DNA of 29,474 nucleotides from a virus, in IMG/VR virus record IMGVR_UViG_3300042402_000931, positions 1-29,474 of that record. One strand, given 5' to 3'. Each line of letters begins with the position of its first letter. Within the stretch, counting starts at the first letter, position 1. Positions 2,927 through 24,507 of this stretch are shown here, piece by piece. The notes beneath the pieces were generated by a model, which searched no databases, had not been told where the DNA came from, and worked only from the letters and a program-made list of their open reading frames with translations. Both the position numbers and the translations under genes were made by a program.

Positions 2927-3082
2927 ATGAAGGTGAAGGTTGAGTTCACGGTGGAGATTGACCGTGAGACTTGGGAGTTGAATTACGGCAAGGCTGAATC
3001 TGCCGCTGAGATTCGCAGCCAGGTTCGGGACTGGGCGGTTGAGTTGTTGAACGATCAACTGGACAGGTCAGGACTCAGGTGA
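2927..3082 (+). CDS. Small charged protein, 51 aa, unknown
   Basis: ATG 2927 is placed by GGAAAGGAATAAGAG. The first ten residues (MKVKVEFTVE) suggest a beta strand; the rest is a probable amphipathic helix (SAAEIRSQVRDWAVELLNDQL). This strand-helix pattern is common in small phage regulators and antitoxin-like proteins, but no family is recognised. Its TGA overlaps a GTG that would start the doubtful next frame. Confidence 0.7.
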   Translation: MKVKVEFTVEIDRETWELNYGKAESAAEIRSQVRDWAVELLNDQLDRSGLR

Positions 3083-3309
3083 TTGATCTGATCCTGGGCG
3101 CTTTGTGTGAGGTTCGGTCAGACGCACACGTCGCCCAGCACGGAGGGTTGGCGGCTGACTCAGCGTGGCACGTCGCCAACGGGGAGCTTCCGACGTGCGG
3201 TCAGGAAGGGGCCGTAAAGGCCCCTGAGAGGGCCGTAGACAGAAGTTTTGACAGTGAACGGGGGGATGAGTCCAAGTCTCGTTTCTGCCGTAAGAAATGG
3301 TTCTGCTAA
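3079..3309 (+). CDS. Doubtful ORF, 76 aa, Cys/Lys-rich end
   Basis: A GTG at 3079 overlapping the previous stop opens a frame to TAA 3307-3309. The tail (SRFCRKKWFC) has the look of a small metal-binding end. Against coding: the frame contains a 7-bp hairpin (3207-3225) and a stoperator-like site (3247-3259), codon use is unremarkable, and the start has no good ribosome site. The alternative is a roughly 240-base regulatory spacer between two gene groups. Confidence 0.4.
   Translation: MIDLILGALCEVRSDAHVAQHGGLAADSAWHVANGELPTCGQEGAVKAPERAVDRSFDSERGDESKSRFCRKKWFC
3207..3225 (+). other. Short GC hairpin in a possible spacer
   Basis: AGGGGCC (3207-3213) pairs perfectly with GGCCCCT (3219-3225) around a GTAAA loop. 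There is no T run after it, so termination is weakly supported. It lies 21 bases upstream of a stoperator-like site. Confidence 0.5.
3247..3259 (+). promoter_or_regulatory. Stoperator-like 13-mer, site 3
   Basis: TTTGACAGTGAAC, a full consensus match, about 65 bases upstream of the well-supported gene start at 3324. Confidence 0.65.
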
Positions 3310-9231: not shown

Positions 9232-9313
9232 TTTCGCTGTCGGGGTGAACTTCCCGCGCTGGGTGGAACGTATCCACGATTACGTGTGGACCGGTGATGA
9301 CGACGATGAATGA
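9215..9313 (+). CDS. Miniprotein, 32 aa, acidic tail
   Basis: ATG 9215 follows GAAGGAG (9201-9207) by seven bases and overlaps the end of the redoxin gene; TGA 9311-9313 overlaps the DUF3310 start. The peptide starts MRFEINFAVGVNF and ends in six acidic residues of seven. Unknown function, possibly only a coupling frame, but the ribosome site is good. Confidence 0.55.
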   Translation: MRFEINFAVGVNFPRWVERIHDYVWTGDDDDE

Positions 9314-9512
9314 CCCGGTTTCCCCGGACCACTACCAGTTCCACAACGGTGTCGAAGTCATCGACCTCACAGAGCAGTTGAACTTCAACCTGGGCAACGT
9401 GGTCAAGTACGCGTCCCGCGCCGGGAGAAAAACAACTGACCCCACAGAGGATTTGAGGAAAGCGCAGTGGTATCTGAACCGCGAAATCTACCGATTGGCA
9501 CATGATGAGTAA
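9306..9512 (+). CDS. DUF3310 protein (phage nucleotide-kinase-like family)
   Basis: About 68 residues that fit DUF3310 well: DPVSPDHYQFHNGVEVIDLTEQL, then LGNVVKYASRAGRK, then DPTEDLRKAQWYLNREI. The family includes short phage proteins related to T7 gp1.7, a nucleotide kinase, although short versions are often called only hypothetical. The conserved block starts two residues after ATG 9306, so this start is preferred over ATG 9297, GTG 9294 and similar codons. The context among RNR, NrdH and polymerase genes fits a nucleotide-pool role. The stop overlaps the metallophosphoesterase gene. Confidence 0.85.
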   Translation: MNDPVSPDHYQFHNGVEVIDLTEQLNFNLGNVVKYASRAGRKTTDPTEDLRKAQWYLNREIYRLAHDE

Positions 9513-10272
9513 ACGGATTGTGATCCTGCCTGACACACAAATCCCGTATCACGATCATCGGGCTATGGCAGCGGTCATCAAGTTCGTCGGGGAATTCAAA
9601 CCAGACGAAGTCATCCACATCGGTGACGTGATGGACTACCCACAACCATCCCGGTGGAACAAAGGGACGGCCGGGGAGTTCGAAGGGTCTGTGTTCAAAG
9701 ACTCTGAGCTAGCGAAGCAAAAACTGTTCGCACCTTTGCGTGCCGTCTATGACGGCCCTATCGGAGTGCATGAGGGTAACCATGACGAACGCCCACGAAC
9801 CTACCTCTCCAAGTACGCCCCGGCGCTGGCTGAGTCTGGTGCGTTTGACATCGAAACCCTTTTGGATTTCGACGGGTTCGGTGTGAAGAAGCTGCCTGAT
9901 TTCAACAAGGTGGCACCGGGGTGGTTGACCACCCACGGGCATAAGGGCGGTATCAGTTTGTCGAGGTTCGCCGGCCACACCGCGTTGGGTGCGGCGGTGA
10001 AGTTCACAAAGAGTGTGGTCATGGGTCACACGCACCGCATCGGTCTGCTGGCTCACTCGTCAGGGTATGACGGGCGGGTCACTAGGACTGTTCACGGGTT
10101 TGAGGTCGGGAACCTGATGGACATGAAGCAGGCGCATTACCTGAAGGGTGCTGCGGGTAACTGGCAGCACGGGTTCGGAATATTGACAGTGAACGGGCAG
10201 CACGTTTCCCCGGAACCTGTGTTCATCAACAACCGTCGATTCACTGTTGACGGCCACACTTGGGAGGTCTAA
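9505..10272 (+). CDS. Metallophosphoesterase, Bxb1 gp47 / L5 gp54 family; probable recombination directionality factor
   Basis: 255 residues, the same length as Bxb1 gp47. Calcineurin-type motifs are present in order: D10-x-Q12 (PDTQ), GDVMD with D41, GNHDE (N92, H93, D94), HGH (H144-H146) and GHTH (H175, H177). In Bxb1 this protein doubles as the recombination directionality factor that lets the serine integrase excise the prophage; in L5, which has a tyrosine integrase, the relative serves another, replication-linked role. Because this window carries a Bxb1-type serine integrase, the RDF role is likely. ATG 9505 or 9502. A stoperator-like site is embedded near the C-terminus (ILTVNG). Confidence 0.92.
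   Translation: MSKRIVILPDTQIPYHDHRAMAAVIKFVGEFKPDEVIHIGDVMDYPQPSRWNKGTAGEFEGSVFKDSELAKQKLFAPLRAVYDGPIGVHEGNHDERPRTYLSKYAPALAESGAFDIETLLDFDGFGVKKLPDFNKVAPGWLTTHGHKGGISLSRFAGHTALGAAVKFTKSVVMGHTHRIGLLAHSSGYDGRVTRTVHGFEVGNLMDMKQAHYLKGAAGNWQHGFGILTVNGQHVSPEPVFINNRRFTVDGHTWEV
10192..10204 (+). promoter_or_regulatory. Stoperator-like 13-mer, site 11
   Basis: ATTGACAGTGAAC inside the metallophosphoesterase gene, 83 bases from site 12. Confidence 0.55.
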
Positions 10273-11055
10273 ATGTTGACTGTGAACGAAACGTACGAGC
10301 AGCGGTGGGCACGCAGGGATGCGAAGTTGCAGGATCGGCTGGCTGACATCCCGTCGAGGTTCACCAACGAGGCGCTGTATGAGGAGCGCCCTGTGGGTTG
10401 GGCGGTGCAGAACGCGGAGCACGAGTTCTTCGGCACCAGTTTTGATGTGTTCCAGAAGCAGGTTCGTAAGGCGGCTCAGACCGTGGCGTGGCAGTGGCCT
10501 GGTGTGTTGGAGGTCGAGGACGCGGAGCAGGAACTGTGGCTTGAACTGATGGACAAGTCCACTATGACCAAGCTGCGGGACTCTTTCGATGACAAAAACC
10601 GGTTGAGTGCGCTTATCAAGATGGGACACCGTATTGCTAACGAGGCTTTTAACGATTACCAGTTAGCCACCGGCAACCTTCGCTACTCCGTCAACGCGGT
10701 AAAGAAAATTCTGGAAGATGCCGCGAACCAAGAGAAGCATCCTGAAGTCAAGCTGCTCACACGTTCAGATTTGTTCAGCCTGACGCGTGGGATGGAGATT
10801 CTTCGCGGAAAGAACGCCGGCCACGCAGACGCTATCTCGTCCCGTTACCGGGAGGGTGAAGTACCGAAAGGCGCAGCGGCAGACCGGCTGCGTAAGGCGC
10901 TCGTTGCTCTCACAACGCACATGAACCGTTCGTACAAACAACAGTACGCGGAACGGTCAGACGGTCCAGGGACTCGCAAGGCGATCAGCAACGTGGCAGC
11001 GCAGGTGATTTCGGCGAAGCAGTACGCCGGTGATTACTCAGACGGGCGACGGTGA
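10273..11055 (+). CDS. Sigma-factor-like DNA-binding protein (tentative), 260 aa
   Basis: ATG 10273 follows GGAGG. A segment at about residues 57-95 (FQKQVRKAAQTVAWQWPG then VEDAEQELWLEL) resembles sigma-70 region 2, where ED-x-x-Q-E is typical. A later stretch (SSRYREGEVPKGAAADRLRKALVAL) resembles a region-4 helix-turn-helix. The charged C-terminus would suit nucleic-acid binding. L5-type phages have a comparable gene between the metallophosphoesterase and RNR, function unproven. A role as late-transcription factor is possible but not demonstrated. A stoperator-like site is fused to the start codon. Confidence 0.7.
   Translation: MLTVNETYEQRWARRDAKLQDRLADIPSRFTNEALYEERPVGWAVQNAEHEFFGTSFDVFQKQVRKAAQTVAWQWPGVLEVEDAEQELWLELMDKSTMTKLRDSFDDKNRLSALIKMGHRIANEAFNDYQLATGNLRYSVNAVKKILEDAANQEKHPEVKLLTRSDLFSLTRGMEILRGKNAGHADAISSRYREGEVPKGAAADRLRKALVALTTHMNRSYKQQYAERSDGPGTRKAISNVAAQVISAKQYAGDYSDGRR
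10275..10287 (+). promoter_or_regulatory. Stoperator-like 13-mer, site 12
   Basis: GTTGACTGTGAAC beginning at the G of the ATG of the sigma-like gene; it encodes LTVN after Met. Confidence 0.65.
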
Positions 11056-16517: not shown

Positions 16518-16893
16518 CTACTTCCTTGGCATTGCTGAAGCAGCTTCAAAGCGATCCTCTTGTGTTCGATCACAGGTAGGCGCGGCGGTTGTCAAGGACA
16601 ACCGTGTTCGCGCTCTTGGATACAACGATTCACCGGCAAGTACTCCTGGCTGTGAGGATTGCCCACGCAGGCTCTCAAAAGTAGAACCGGGTTCAAACTA
16701 TGACGAGGGAGTAGGCCAATGTCGGGCGATCCATGCCGAAGCCAATGCTCTTATTCACTGCGACAGAGAAGACCTCGTAGGTGCCACCTTGTACGTCACC
16801 AGGGAGCCGTGCTACGCCTGCGACAAACTGATCCAGGCTGCCGGCGTTCACGCGGTGGTGTGGCCTGACCCGAAGGAAGTTGGAAATGAGTGA
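16432..16893 (+). CDS. dCMP deaminase
   Basis: Cytidine/deoxycytidylate deaminase fold: the zinc ligand and catalytic residues H101 and E103 (HAEANAL), then C127 and C130 (PCYAC), with an extra Cys set (CEDC, QC) as in dCMP deaminases such as T4 gp cd. It makes dUMP from dCMP for the thymidylate pathway; no thyX is seen in the window. Recognisable family sequence begins only at about residue 24 (KPSWADYFLGIAEA). The first ~23 residues overlap the HNH gene, and no convincing ribosome site precedes ATG 16432, so the true start may have been displaced by HNH insertion. Confidence 0.9.
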   Translation: MGMGLSTENASHAGEKLADARRQKPSWADYFLGIAEAASKRSSCVRSQVGAAVVKDNRVRALGYNDSPASTPGCEDCPRRLSKVEPGSNYDEGVGQCRAIHAEANALIHCDREDLVGATLYVTREPCYACDKLIQAAGVHAVVWPDPKEVGNE

Positions 16894-17092
16894 CCTCCGC
16901 ACCCGCATCGCCGCCGCGCTGAGAACCGCCGACAGGAGAGTGGCAGGGTTTATCGGCTACGACGAAATGGCCGACGCGGTGATCGCGGAACTCAAACTCG
17001 AAAAGCAAACCCTCAACCGCGAGTTCTGGGGTGCCGCACCCAACGTCTACCGGTACATCACCGAATGGAAGGCCGACGATGAAACTGACTGA
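16886..17092 (+). CDS. Small actinophage protein, 68 aa
   Basis: ATG 16886 overlaps the deaminase stop; GAAGGAAG lies upstream. It starts MSDLRTRIAAALRTAD and continues with a helix (YDEMADAVIAELKLE). Similar N-termini occur in many actinophage minor proteins, but the function is unknown. It overlaps the next gene by 14 bases. Confidence 0.75.
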   Translation: MSDLRTRIAAALRTADRRVAGFIGYDEMADAVIAELKLEKQTLNREFWGAAPNVYRYITEWKADDETD

Positions 17093-17222
17093 ACTGATCC
17101 TGCAACTCCACACGATCATGTTGGAGAAGGGAAACCTGGACGTGATGCTGTGGGGCGAACAAGGCTGGGATGAACCCAGCCCGAAATACAGCGAGTTTTC
17201 AAAGTGGGTTGAACTCAACTAG
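17079..17222 (+). CDS. Small protein, 47 aa, unknown
   Basis: ATG 17079 lies within the end of the previous gene. The product has an N-terminal helix (MKLTELILQLHTIMLEKG) followed by DVMLWGEQGWDEP. It resembles a short phage family often found near integrase modules, but I cannot name it. The TAG at 17220-17222 is directly adjacent to the probable attP. Confidence 0.7.
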   Translation: MKLTELILQLHTIMLEKGNLDVMLWGEQGWDEPSPKYSEFSKWVELN

Positions 17223-17274
17223 TTTTTCACAAAGCGTGACACCTGATGTGTCATAGGTTACTGTTTGTGAAATG
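17223..17274 (+). other. Probable attP of the serine integrase
   Basis: A 48-base element at 17225-17272 is bounded by perfect 9-base inverted arms, TTTCACAAA (17225-17233) and TTTGTGAAA (17264-17272). Around the centre between 17248 and 17249, 16 of 24 paired positions are symmetric, and the central dinucleotide is GT. The size, end arms and GT centre parallel Bxb1 attP (48 bp, GT core). The right arm ends at the first base of the integrase ATG. An additional inner inverted pair, TGACAC (17238-17243) / GTGTCA (17248-17253), is offset by three bases. Confidence 0.72.
17237..17264 (+). promoter_or_regulatory. Candidate integrase promoter nested in attP (leaderless transcript)
   Basis: GTGACA (17237-17242), a 16-base spacer, and TACTGT (17259-17264). 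A start about seven bases later falls at the integrase ATG 17272, and there is no Shine-Dalgarno before that ATG, so a leaderless mRNA is suggested. The crossover centre (17248/17249) lies between the two hexamers. Confidence 0.5.
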
Positions 17275-18690
17275 CGTGTACTAGGCAGAATCCGGTTATC
17301 CAGACTCACAGACGAATCAACCTCCGCTGCACGTCAACGGCAGCTTATCGAACAATGGGCGCACGCCAACGCCCACGAAGTGGTCGGCTGGGCCGAAGAC
17401 CTAGATGTCTCCGGTTCAGTCGATCCCTTCGACACCCCAGCACTAGGACCCTGGCTCACACCGGACAAACAACAAGACTGGGACCTGCTGTGCGCGTGGA
17501 AGCTGGACCGGCTAGGCCGGGACTCCATCAGGCTCAACAAACTCTTCGGGTGGGCAATCGACAACAACAAAACGGTTGTGTCTTGCTCTGAGGGAATCGA
17601 CCTCTCAACGCCTGTCGGCCGGCTCATAGCGAACGTCATAGCGTTCCTAGCAGAAGGTGAACTTGAGGCCATCAGGGAGCGCACCAGAGCGTCCCGTAAA
17701 GCCCTCCTGCAAGCCGGCAGATGGACCGGAGGGTCAGTACCCTACGGGCTCCAAGCCGCACCCCTACACGGCGGCGGATGGACACTGGTACACAACCCAG
17801 ACACAGCCCCGATAATCCACCGCATCGTCCAGCAAGTCACTGACGGGCAACCCGTCAAGCTAGTAGCAGACAACCTCAACACAGAGGGCATCCCTTCCCC
17901 CACCGGGGTCAAGTGGCCGGCCAAAACGATCTGGAAAATCATCACCGCCAAATACCTCCTAGGGCACTCCACCTACGAGGGGAACACCGTGCGGGACCGG
18001 GAAGGTAAACCCATCTACGGGTCAGAACCACTACTCACACAAACCCAGTGGGATGCGCTGCAACGCGCCGTGGAAGAACGGCGGGCAGCCCCACGCCGGG
18101 TCAGCAAAACCTCACCCCTGCTGGGGGTGATCCTGTGCTGGGAATGCGGGGCAAACCTCTACCACCAATGCCACGTCAAAGAGAAAAAGTCATACCGGTA
18201 CTACTACTGCCGTGGCGGTCACACCGCGCACATCGAAGCGGTGATGGCAGAAACTCTGATCGAAGAAACATTCCTAAACGCTGTCAAAGAAACACCTGTT
18301 TTGGAGAAAGTGTTTCAGCCAGCGGAGAACCACCAAGCTGAATTAGACGAGGCGTACCGGGCTGTCGATGAACTCACAGCGTTACTAGGAACAATCAGTT
18401 CTGCTGGTATGCGTTCTAGGTTGAATGAGCAGATGCTTGCTTTGGACGGGCGGATAGAGGCGTTGGAGAAATTACCGGCCCGTGAACCAGGATGGGAATT
18501 CAAAGAAACCGGGGTGCTATTCAAAGACGCGTGGAACACAGGGACACAAGAACAACGCAGGGAACTGTTACTGCGTGCGGGGATCACCTACCGCACGAAA
18601 CGCACACCAGGCACTAAAATGATCCACGGGGAAATCTATATCCCTGATGAAATCCTCGACCGTCTGAACGCAAAAAATCCCCCCTCGTGA
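17272..18690 (+). CDS. Large serine integrase, Bxb1 type
   Basis: 472 residues. The N-terminal resolvase domain has catalytic S10 in RIRLSR, then RQRQLIEQW, AEDLDVSGSVDPFD and CAWKLDRLGRDSIRL; a recombinase domain follows (GGSVPYGLQ, NLNTEGIPSPTGVKW), then a zinc ribbon (CWECGANLYHQC with YRYYYC), a coiled-coil insertion, and a C-terminal segment with GWEFKETG. The start aligns residue for residue with Bxb1 integrase (MRALVVIRLSRVTD), which fixes ATG 17272. It integrates the phage by attP x attB recombination; excision needs an RDF, probably the metallophosphoesterase at 9505-10272. Its TGA lies in the loop of a terminator hairpin. Confidence 0.97.
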   Translation: MRVLGRIRLSRLTDESTSAARQRQLIEQWAHANAHEVVGWAEDLDVSGSVDPFDTPALGPWLTPDKQQDWDLLCAWKLDRLGRDSIRLNKLFGWAIDNNKTVVSCSEGIDLSTPVGRLIANVIAFLAEGELEAIRERTRASRKALLQAGRWTGGSVPYGLQAAPLHGGGWTLVHNPDTAPIIHRIVQQVTDGQPVKLVADNLNTEGIPSPTGVKWPAKTIWKIITAKYLLGHSTYEGNTVRDREGKPIYGSEPLLTQTQWDALQRAVEERRAAPRRVSKTSPLLGVILCWECGANLYHQCHVKEKKSYRYYYCRGGHTAHIEAVMAETLIEETFLNAVKETPVLEKVFQPAENHQAELDEAYRAVDELTALLGTISSAGMRSRLNEQMLALDGRIEALEKLPAREPGWEFKETGVLFKDAWNTGTQEQRRELLLRAGITYRTKRTPGTKMIHGEIYIPDEILDRLNAKNPPS

Positions 18691-22534: not shown

Positions 22535-24507
22535 TCCAACCCCCACGGGCGTGTCCACGGACGCGGCAGACGCAGCGTCACCATCTGACCCGGCCTTGCA
22601 CCGGACACCGTTACCTCAAAGCGCCCCGAAGGGGTGTACGGGGGAATCGGATGGCGGAAACGAACACCGTTCATCCTGCCCCACAACTGCGAACCAGACT
22701 CGCTGACAACCTGTTCCACACGGGGATCGGTGTCAATTATGGCGTTCTCGGCGGGCAGAGTGTTCCCCTGCTGCTTCGTCGTAACCACAACGGACTTCAC
22801 CGGCCTACCACCAGTCAACCCGGCAGGATCACCGGTCAACTCATCGACATCAAGACCACCAAGAAGACCATCGGCTTTGAACGTCACCCGGTACGGGCGG
22901 GAGCCGTCCACCAGAGTGGCAACCTCCACACGATTATTCTGACCACCAGTCAGACCCGTAACGTCACCAGTCAAAGCATCGAAATTCACACCAGAAGTGG
23001 TGGCCTGGAAAGTAATTGTGTACCTGCGGCCACCGTTCTGAACCCGCTTGACATCAGCTTCGATACCGGCACCGCCGGCAAGCTTCGACACATCACACAC
23101 CAGCGTGTTGATGGGTACACCCGCCATGCCGTTGACGAACTCGACCTTCCACGGCGAACCACCAAACAGATCAGCGTCCACCCGGACATCGAAGTCACCG
23201 ATACCGGGCAACTCCACCAAAGCCTGGGCAACCTGAAGGGCTGTCGCGTTGTAAGGAAGGGCACGGGTGATGTTCCCATCCAACTCCAACGTGAACGTCC
23301 CACGAGTCGGCTCACCCGCAATGACAATTTCTTGAATGTTGTTCTGGATTTCCTCAGTAACAGTGCCACCAAGCAAACCGACCGTGTTCAACGATGCCAA
23401 CGCAGTGAAAACCTCAAGGGCAGACGCGTTGTAATTCAACGGAACCGTCTGTGCGCCTTCTAGGTTAAGCCGCCAGGTACCCCCCGTAGCACCCCCTAGA
23501 AGCTCCACAGTCTGCTTCTCATCGGTGTTAGGGGCCCGCCACACGTCCACGTCCCCACGGGCGATACCAGCCAACGCAACCAGGGCATCCTCGACCTGCT
23601 GCGCCTCAGCGTTATAGCTGATCGGCATCGTTGTTTCGCCGTCGAAAGACAGGGTGAACGTACCGCCGGTAGGCCGGCCGTCCACAAAAAATTCCTGCAC
23701 TTCCTCAGTCCGCAACCCACCAATCAACGAGGGCAGTTTCAACCTGCGGTTAGCGTTCTCGTCCTGCTTCCAGGAATAATCCGGCAACACCCAAATCGTT
23801 GCCTGGGACTTCGGAGCGCCCAACCACGGCAACCCAGGAATATACGGGTCAGCCGGCTTCTCCGTGCTACCAGGAACAGTCCACTTAGGAAATATCCACT
23901 GATCAGTCGGGTTCAAACCATTACGGCAACTCTTCGGGTTGACCTCCAACCACAAAGTCTCCCTAGGTAACTCTTTCTGGGGCCAGGGCCACGGCAACTG
24001 CAACTCGTTAGGATCAAACCGTGTGTCCGTGACGGTCACAGCGGAGTAAACCTCATCGTCCTCATACCAGTAAGGGTCAGTGGCAACCACCACCATCACC
24101 GTGCGGTTCACACCGTTACCGTTAGGGTCGAAAAACATTTCGACCTCAGGTGACTCCAACAACCGCACCTTCAACCAGCGAGTACCAGACTCCTCCGTGG
24201 TCACATACAGTTTGGAGTCCCGGTCAAAAGCCCACGCTTTACGCCACTCACTGTCCCTCGACAGCCAAGAGTCAGTGCGGCCGGCAAGAATCTCCACCGC
24301 GAACGTCAACTCACGTTTCTGCACACGGTGATTCAGATACCGGGCACCGGGCCAGTTACCGGGCTCCTCATGCACCACCTTCACAGGTGGCTCAAACAAC
24401 CCCTTGATGTCAGTGCCCAGGTACACACCCTCGTCCCCGGCGGCGGGGCCGGCCAGCGTAAACCACTGGCCGTCCACCCCCTCCAACTCCACAACAGTCT
24501 TCTGCAT
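22531..24507 (-). CDS. Minor tail protein, distal-tail-like with internal repeats, 658 aa
   Basis: ATG 24507 follows GGAAGGTAGAG and starts two bases after the tape measure stop. Residues 1-165 (GLFEPPVKVVHEEPGNWPGARY, LTFAVEIL, DPNGNGVNRTVMVVVATDPYWY in segments) resemble siphovirus distal tail (Dit/T4 gp... RIFT-related) proteins. Residues 279-440 hold three ~40-residue repeats (G-TFTLxxDG..PYNAxALQV..AL..L), and residues 452-567 three further ~28-residue repeats ending VxxLxGG (KLAGG, GLTGG, GLTGG). These probably form repeated beta domains decorating the tail tip. The C-terminus (RPGQMVTLRLPRPWTRPWG) is basic. Confidence 0.88.
   Translation of the reverse strand: MQKTVVELEGVDGQWFTLAGPAAGDEGVYLGTDIKGLFEPPVKVVHEEPGNWPGARYLNHRVQKRELTFAVEILAGRTDSWLSRDSEWRKAWAFDRDSKLYVTTEESGTRWLKVRLLESPEVEMFFDPNGNGVNRTVMVVVATDPYWYEDDEVYSAVTVTDTRFDPNELQLPWPWPQKELPRETLWLEVNPKSCRNGLNPTDQWIFPKWTVPGSTEKPADPYIPGLPWLGAPKSQATIWVLPDYSWKQDENANRRLKLPSLIGGLRTEEVQEFFVDGRPTGGTFTLSFDGETTMPISYNAEAQQVEDALVALAGIARGDVDVWRAPNTDEKQTVELLGGATGGTWRLNLEGAQTVPLNYNASALEVFTALASLNTVGLLGGTVTEEIQNNIQEIVIAGEPTRGTFTLELDGNITRALPYNATALQVAQALVELPGIGDFDVRVDADLFGGSPWKVEFVNGMAGVPINTLVCDVSKLAGGAGIEADVKRVQNGGRRYTITFQATTSGVNFDALTGDVTGLTGGQNNRVEVATLVDGSRPYRVTFKADGLLGGLDVDELTGDPAGLTGGRPVKSVVVTTKQQGNTLPAENAIIDTDPRVEQVVSESGSQLWGRMNGVRFRHPIPPYTPSGRFEVTVSGARPGQMVTLRLPRPWTRPWGLE

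Follow-up and report, generated by a model that had tools for sequence, protein, structure and literature searches.

A metallophosphoesterase of the Bxb1 gp47 family as candidate recombination directionality factor in a fragment of a phage related to cluster-A mycobacteriophages

Results

The locus encodes a gp47-family metallophosphoesterase

The DNA analysed here (the window) is a virus record of 29,474 bases, a 29.5-kb fragment from a relative of the cluster-A mycobacteriophages. Bxb1, Twister, Swann and phiGD24-3 contain relatives of its primase, helicase, polymerase, exonuclease, repressor and tail genes, and in a megablast search the ribonucleotide reductase (RNR) gene was the sole matching stretch among the best rows, with ~73% identity. 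The genes at the locus under study are as follows.

9294..9512, + strand: DUF3310 gene, overlapping the next frame from upstream
9505..10272, + strand: gp47-family metallophosphoesterase (MPE), 255 aa, candidate recombination directionality factor (RDF), assigned by phrog_221, Pfam Metallophos, the gp47 alignment and an AF2 model
10273..11055, + strand: sigma-K-like gene (phrog_354 / Mycobacteriophage_Gp53), directly downstream of the MPE

The original prediction named the product of 9505-10272 as the likely excision factor and noted that it equals Bxb1 gp47, a proven RDF (PMC3642061, PMC5737554), in length. The ORF is real, with 255 aa encoded on the + strand and an in-frame ATG at 9502 as an alternative start that would give 256 aa. 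The protein matches the phrog_221 metallo-phosphoesterase profile with an E of 1.6e-109 (profile positions 110-363 of 367) and Pfam Metallophos with 26.7 bits at a cut-off of 21.5 bits. Bxb1 gp47 (36020-36787 in the Bxb1 record) is also 255 aa long, and the two proteins align without gaps over 255/255 residues with 160 identities (62.7%), confirming the equal length. Among named relatives, Twister gp51 and many others come closest, with 71% identity. The sigma-K-like neighbour adjoins the MPE in Bxb1 (gp45) and Twister (gp50) as well, and the order that follows the MPE, namely the sigma-K-like gene, a Gp52-like gene and RNR, is the same in Twister; the gene thus sits in the conserved early-gene block, beside the sigma-K-like gene and near RNR, as is characteristic of the family. 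The window MPE is a cluster-A core metallophosphoesterase of the Bxb1 gp47 family.

The metal site is invariant regardless of integrase type

From the gp47 alignment, the metal motifs and the serine of interest were located at the following positions.

9532..9540, + strand: motif I, D10-T11-Q12 (DxQ, not DxH)
9625..9636, + strand: motif II, D41..D44
9778..9783, + strand: motif III, N92-H93
9934..9942, + strand: motif IV, H144-G-H146
9961..9963, + strand: S153, counterpart of Bxb1 gp47 S153
10027..10035, + strand: motif V, H175-T-H177

All five calcineurin-type metal motifs had been said to be present. Motifs II to V are, and the numbering of D41 and H93 proved right against the gp47 alignment, but motif I reads D10-T-Q12 and not the canonical calcineurin-type DxH. 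We aligned the MPEs of 36 of 40 records, leaving out the Seanderson MPE (W22), which is split by an insert, and the duplicates G004 and G010, while G016 has no MPE. D10, Q12, D41, D44, N92, H93, H144, H146, H175 and H177 are invariant in 36/36 sequences; since D10 and Q12 never vary, motif I is DxQ throughout the family, and DTQ is a lineage variant of motif I that keeps D10. The ligands are equally invariant in the MPEs of phages with a serine integrase, with a tyrosine integrase and with no integrase found, so the equal length and the metal motifs, which had been offered as grounds for the RDF role, are not evidence for it.

S153A in Bxb1 gp47 reportedly abolishes RDF activity (Savinov et al. 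2012), and changes in the metal motifs reportedly spare it. Residue 153 is serine in 20/24 MPEs from phages with a serine integrase (Int-S) and in 6/11 others (Fisher p 0.10, the 11 not counting the distant Percastrophe MPE). The presence of S153 in the window MPE is compatible with an RDF role but not specific to it. S62 occurs in 21 of 24 Int-S MPEs and 4 of 11 others (Fisher p 0.004), a value that is uncorrected for kinship and comes from a column chosen after a scan. The segment 58-63 (EFEGSV) was considered as a patch that reads the integrase and rejected, because Trouble and BillKnuckles, whose integrases are Bxb1-like (94-97% within that group), carry the other allele.

The AF2 model of the MPE (55 sequences, mean pLDDT 90.0, pTM 0.90) has LpxH, Mre11/SbcD and the PolD DP1 exonuclease as PDB neighbours (E about 1e-7 to 1e-4, TM about 0.35-0.5). 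A sequence search of the PDB gave no match at E 0.01, indicating that the protein has no solved relative. A10ZJ24 Gp48 and D29 Gp66 belong to the same family by their authors' description, and the functions reported for them there are phosphodiesterase activity, toxicity and counter-defence, not excision (PMC12287305). The same paper (EMBO Rep 2025) describes a phosphodiesterase activity of A10ZJ24 Gp48 that is abolished by D10G, a change in the catalytic residue, cites Bxb1 gp47 as reported without phosphoesterase activity, and assigns a counter-defence role to the cluster-A MPE family (PMC12287305). In the A4 phage Kampy, the MPE gene is reported as one of those with the highest transcription at 15-30 min (PMC4626039). 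From these papers on relatives and from the modeled fold, we infer a lytic role as the ancestral one: the MPE would serve early lytic growth, with a two-metal phosphodiesterase site that acts in DNA replication or in the handling of host DNA.

The metallophosphoesterase is not a marker of serine integrases

We found the MPE in 39 of 40 records, a set that was mostly picked through MPE hits and includes duplicates (HINdeR twice, Swann probably twice). A Recombinase domain is present in 28 of these records, a tyrosine integrase in 5 and neither in 7; for Gordonia phage Anon, one of the 7, ParA/ParB are annotated. Twelve of the 39 MPE-bearing records therefore lack any serine integrase (5 tyrosine, 7 neither), so that co-occurrence of MPE and integrase is expected even without an RDF function, and the MPE is not a marker of serine integrases. 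The sample selected by integrase comprised 47 of 64 loci, with 17 short contigs or already tested records left out, plus Maddie1 and GardenState. The MPE was found in 34/34 IMG/VR records of at least 40 kb, in 8/13 shorter than 40 kb and in 42/49 of the whole sample; Maddie1 and GardenState, both added by hand, have no MPE. The RDF reading requires that full-size phages with such an integrase have the MPE, but a lineage-wide core gene predicts the same.

The integrase belongs to a different group from that of Bxb1

Next to one another further downstream lie the integrase, a putative attP and two small ORFs.

16886..17092, + strand: 68-aa ORF near the integrase gene, rival small-RDF candidate, no family match
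17079..17222, + strand: 47-aa ORF directly 5' of attP and the integrase gene, rival small-RDF candidate, no family match
17224..17273, no strand assigned: attP-like palindrome with GT centre at 17248-17249, from a palindrome search
17272..18690, + strand: large serine integrase, 472 aa, Twister/phiGD24-3 group

The predicted GT-centred attP-like site is indeed there, its centre at 17248-17249 just 5' of the integrase. It ranked best in the palindrome search over 180 bases around the integrase start and is an imperfect palindrome, with 16/24 positions symmetric and 2/1000 shuffles as good; in a control on Bxb1 by the same method, the GT-centred site ranks second. A host attB for this integrase was looked for and not found. 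In three records with integrases 98, 77 and 87% identical (L262, L263 and L278, respectively), the attP-like site and the integrase start are kept and the DNA to the left of the site is unrelated. With conservation setting in at the left boundary of the attP-like site, these comparisons suggest that int and attP form an exchangeable module.

The description of the integrase as Bxb1-type holds in a broad sense only; its identity to Bxb1 gp35 is only 36% pairwise, 34% in the multiple alignment and 33% in a further comparison, and it falls in another group and branch. It is 55% identical to the Topanga and Twister integrases and 54% to that of phiGD24-3, and its reading frame is intact. The integrases form three groups with 24-34% identity between groups: group I contains those of the window, Twister, phiGD24-3, the Benedict-like Lev2, HINdeR and Swann, group II those of Bxb1 and G003, and group III those of Peaches, MyraDee and G007. 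In the region after the coiled coil, the Bxb1 integrase matches the window's at 50%. This region was considered as a dock specific for gp47 and rejected, since its TG..(F/Y)...W pattern is also found in integrases from genomes without MPE.

These genomes came from one scan of bacterial genomes with the group-I integrase alignment, which gave 24 loci; 23 genomes were then searched with the MPE profile, and 21 of the 23 had no match. The matches are in Pseudonocardia oroxyli (1.4e-41), whose L235 locus includes an MPE-like ORF, and, distantly, in Glycomyces lechevalierae (2.6e-21). We built an integrase tree by a quick method from 41 of 50 rows, after dropping 8 near-copies and one fragment; L235 and L237 are not in the tree. 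The label for absence of the MPE on this tree rests on draft genomes, and the genome of L233 has a distant match (2.6e-21). The Bxb1 integrase clusters with those of G003 and of an MPE-less genome (gen_L234) with support 99, and group III integrases join two from MPE-less genomes with support 88. The window integrase does not cluster with that of Bxb1 and lies in a separate starred set of 15 rows (support 97). Within group I, integrases of MPE phages are interleaved with those of MPE-less elements, and the starred branches require the label to change at least 8 times. With the integrase on a different branch and MPE-less relatives in between, the Bxb1 RDF result is not transferable to the window integrase by simple descent. 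Our literature search found no RDF test for the Twister/phiGD24-3 integrase group.

Integrases were exchanged under nearly unchanged metallophosphoesterases

It had been proposed that integrase and MPE coevolved. For 24 phages (of 26 integrases extracted) we calculated distances for the integrase, MPE, DNA polymerase and DnaB-like helicase. The partial correlation between integrase and MPE given polymerase and helicase was 0.12 in the full set (reached by 298/2000 permutations), 0.11 without phiGD24-3 (264/2000) and 0.13 in 17 dereplicated phages (429/2000), which gives no signal of coevolution beyond the genome phylogeny. For MPE and polymerase the corresponding values were 0.52 without phiGD24-3 (0/2000) and 0.57 in the 17 dereplicated phages (1/2000); in the full set, which includes the very different polymerase of phiGD24-3, they were 0.07 for MPE-polymerase and 0.71 for MPE-helicase. 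In this M. abscessus prophage (MW314854, L177), the polymerase has been replaced and shares 29% identity with that of the window along part of its length, while the MPE is 59%, the helicase 55% and the integrase 54% identical.

Between Twister (group I) and G003 (group II), identity is 95% for the MPEs and 31% for the integrases, and the MPEs of Peaches (group III) and G015, which has a tyrosine integrase, are 98% identical. Since integrases were exchanged under nearly unchanged MPEs, the integrase side probably did the adapting; if one MPE family serves all these integrases, adaptation sits in the integrase and not in the MPE. A replication protein co-opted as RDF, as Savinov et al. are said to have described, agrees with adaptation on the integrase side. 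So does the phiC31 family, for which an RDF surface more conserved than the integrase surface has been described (PMC11530663).

Other candidates for the directionality factor

The statement that no small Xis-like gene is seen by the integrase is right insofar as none of a known family is there. Two small family-less ORFs do lie beside attP, and the record is a fragment, so a small Xis may still exist. This leaves room for a reading in which the MPE has a core lytic role only (replication, host DNA attack or counter-defence) and the RDF is a different protein, small and unrecognised, encoded beside the integrase gene or beyond the 29.5-kb fragment. The retention of the MPE by phages with a tyrosine integrase or none found agrees with this, as do the counter-defence role assigned to the family (PMC12287305), RDFs that are described as unrecognisable by sequence (PMC6002521), and GardenState, which has no MPE and carries an unrelated gene annotated as RDF; the GardenState integrase is as distant from the window's as that of Bxb1 (31% vs 33%). 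Against it stand the Bxb1 precedent and the MPE in every one of the integrase-selected records of at least 40 kb, and the 47-aa ORF does not regularly accompany the integrase, since L262, L263 and L278 have unrelated DNA 5' of attP. We regard this as a serious contender, though one that we would not bet on over the MPE. In GardenState, a Microbacterium phage (L326, 8215-9201) with a distantly related integrase, the RDF-annotated gene is phrog_9220, of unknown function.

Twister gp35 (L087, 11502-11933) and Swann gp30 (L090, 19922-20398) are divergent from the integrase and carry the PHROGs label excisionase (phrog_733) together with Pfam DUF2637; the excisionase label on these DUF2637 proteins is probably misleading. 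A minus-strand ORF at 16796-17218 in the window was examined as the counterpart of Twister gp35 and discarded, as it shows no resemblance by eye and overlaps the dCMP deaminase gene and a small plus-strand ORF.

The window contains one more gene with an RDF label.

3079..3309, + strand: relative of Bxb1 gp70, 76 aa, phrog_439, PHROGs label RDF

That its product is the RDF is suggested by the PHROGs category 'integration and excision', which is also given to Bxb1 gp70. However, the Bxb1 record calls gp70 related to gp76 of L5, a phage that uses a tyrosine integrase and an Xis of its own, and PHROGs places the RDF label on Bxb1 gp46 as well. The proven RDF of Bxb1 is gp47, not gp70 (PMC3642061), so the label on gp46 and gp70 looks misplaced, and we give this candidate next to no credence. 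In RefSeq, too, gp46 (L002, 13876-14016) and gp70 (23025-23324) are called RDF, and gp47 is called metallo-phosphoesterase.

It is likewise very improbable that the integrase needs no phage RDF, or that the prophage is excision-defective, which would make the resemblance of the MPE irrelevant to excision. Nothing positive speaks for this beyond the existence of integrases in MPE-less elements; serine integrases of known biology are described as strictly directional (PMC3642061), and the window integrase has an intact frame.

Related integrases in short elements without a metallophosphoesterase

Several of the MPE-less elements are short: some 8-12 kb beyond the integrase, L219-L222 and L236 return to homologous genes that probably belong to the host. 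L218, L220, L221 and L236 have capsid and connector genes in common with Maddie1 (L325), an 11-kb Mycolicibacterium 'phage'. All five carry group-I-like serine integrases, have capsid, adaptor, stopper and terminase genes in common and lack the MPE; the MPE-less elements of ~10 kb are found in Mycobacterium and an Actinomycetota genome. By gene content, the Maddie1-like elements look like capsid-forming satellites, and elements of this kind have been called candidate PICIs (PMC10654092). The MPE-less elements could be remnants or could encode an RDF themselves; more speculatively, they might read the MPE of a helper phage, as the Vibrio PLE is described to read PexA of ICP1 (PMC6002521).

Taken together, MPEs of 95% identity beside integrases of 31%, the lack of coevolution, the interleaved integrase tree and the MPE-less satellites bring up a wider reading, in which the MPE would be a generic signal that the lytic cycle has begun, recruited anew by successive unrelated serine integrases, and satellites would excise through the MPE of a helper, similar to PLE and PexA. 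We consider this rather unlikely as it stands; our literature search recognised no report of satellites that read the MPE of a helper phage.

Discussion

The MPE of the window belongs to a known family, and the earlier hypothesis of an RDF is reasonable, although most of its grounds are not diagnostic. A gp47-type RDF role is made plausible by the full-length relationship to gp47, the resident serine integrase with its attP-like site, S153, and the 34/34 large integrase-selected records with an MPE; that no gene of a known small-Xis family lies beside the integrase also speaks for it. On balance, by analogy with Bxb1, we favor the interpretation that the MPE acts as RDF of the resident serine integrase besides a phosphodiesterase-like core role in lytic growth. 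The MPE would be expressed after induction, bind the resident integrase and, as deduced from Bxb1, switch it from attP x attB to attL x attR recombination.

Bxb1 gp47 resembles the window MPE in its 255 aa, 62.7% identity, metal residues, S153 and neighbour genes; it differs in pairing with an integrase of another branch and at several positions of segment 147-161. Twister gp51 is the closer likeness, with 71% identity, an integrase that is also among the closest (55%) and the same gene orientation. However, next to the Twister integrase lies a DUF2637 gene (phrog_733, labelled excisionase), of which none was found by the window integrase, and Twister gp51 and Peaches gp52 are annotated as metallophosphoesterase only. 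The phiC31 gp3-type RDFs and PexA of ICP1 are described to bind a large serine integrase and flip its direction (PMC11530663, PMC6002521). The RDFs of phiC31 and Bxb1 are reported as unrelated proteins (PMC5737554), and PexA as having no similarity to known proteins (PMC6002521). The 'gp47' of a 2026 paper is an unrelated LeBron gene and was dismissed as a relative of Bxb1 gp47.

Few pairs of serine integrase and RDF have been characterised, with nine systems listed in a 2024 paper that itself adds TG1 (PMC11530663). If our interpretation is right, it would supply an RDF for the large Twister/Benedict/phiGD24-3 branch of integrases and extend the reach of the Bxb1 case twofold, and the near-identical MPEs beside unrelated integrases, as in Twister vs G003, would be a natural experiment in which one RDF serves several integrases. 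If the MPE is not the RDF, the habit of calling all cluster-A MPEs 'RDF' (as with Lesedi gp48, Tiffany and Trouble) would be wrong in most cases.

We also noticed in-frame, intein-size inserts in two MPEs. That of Seanderson (L107, 930-2648) lies near residue 94, and in record G041 (L279, 96.8 kb) the two pieces match profile positions 1-177 and 166-255 in one open frame. RDF inteins have already been described in A1 phages (PMC5050341).
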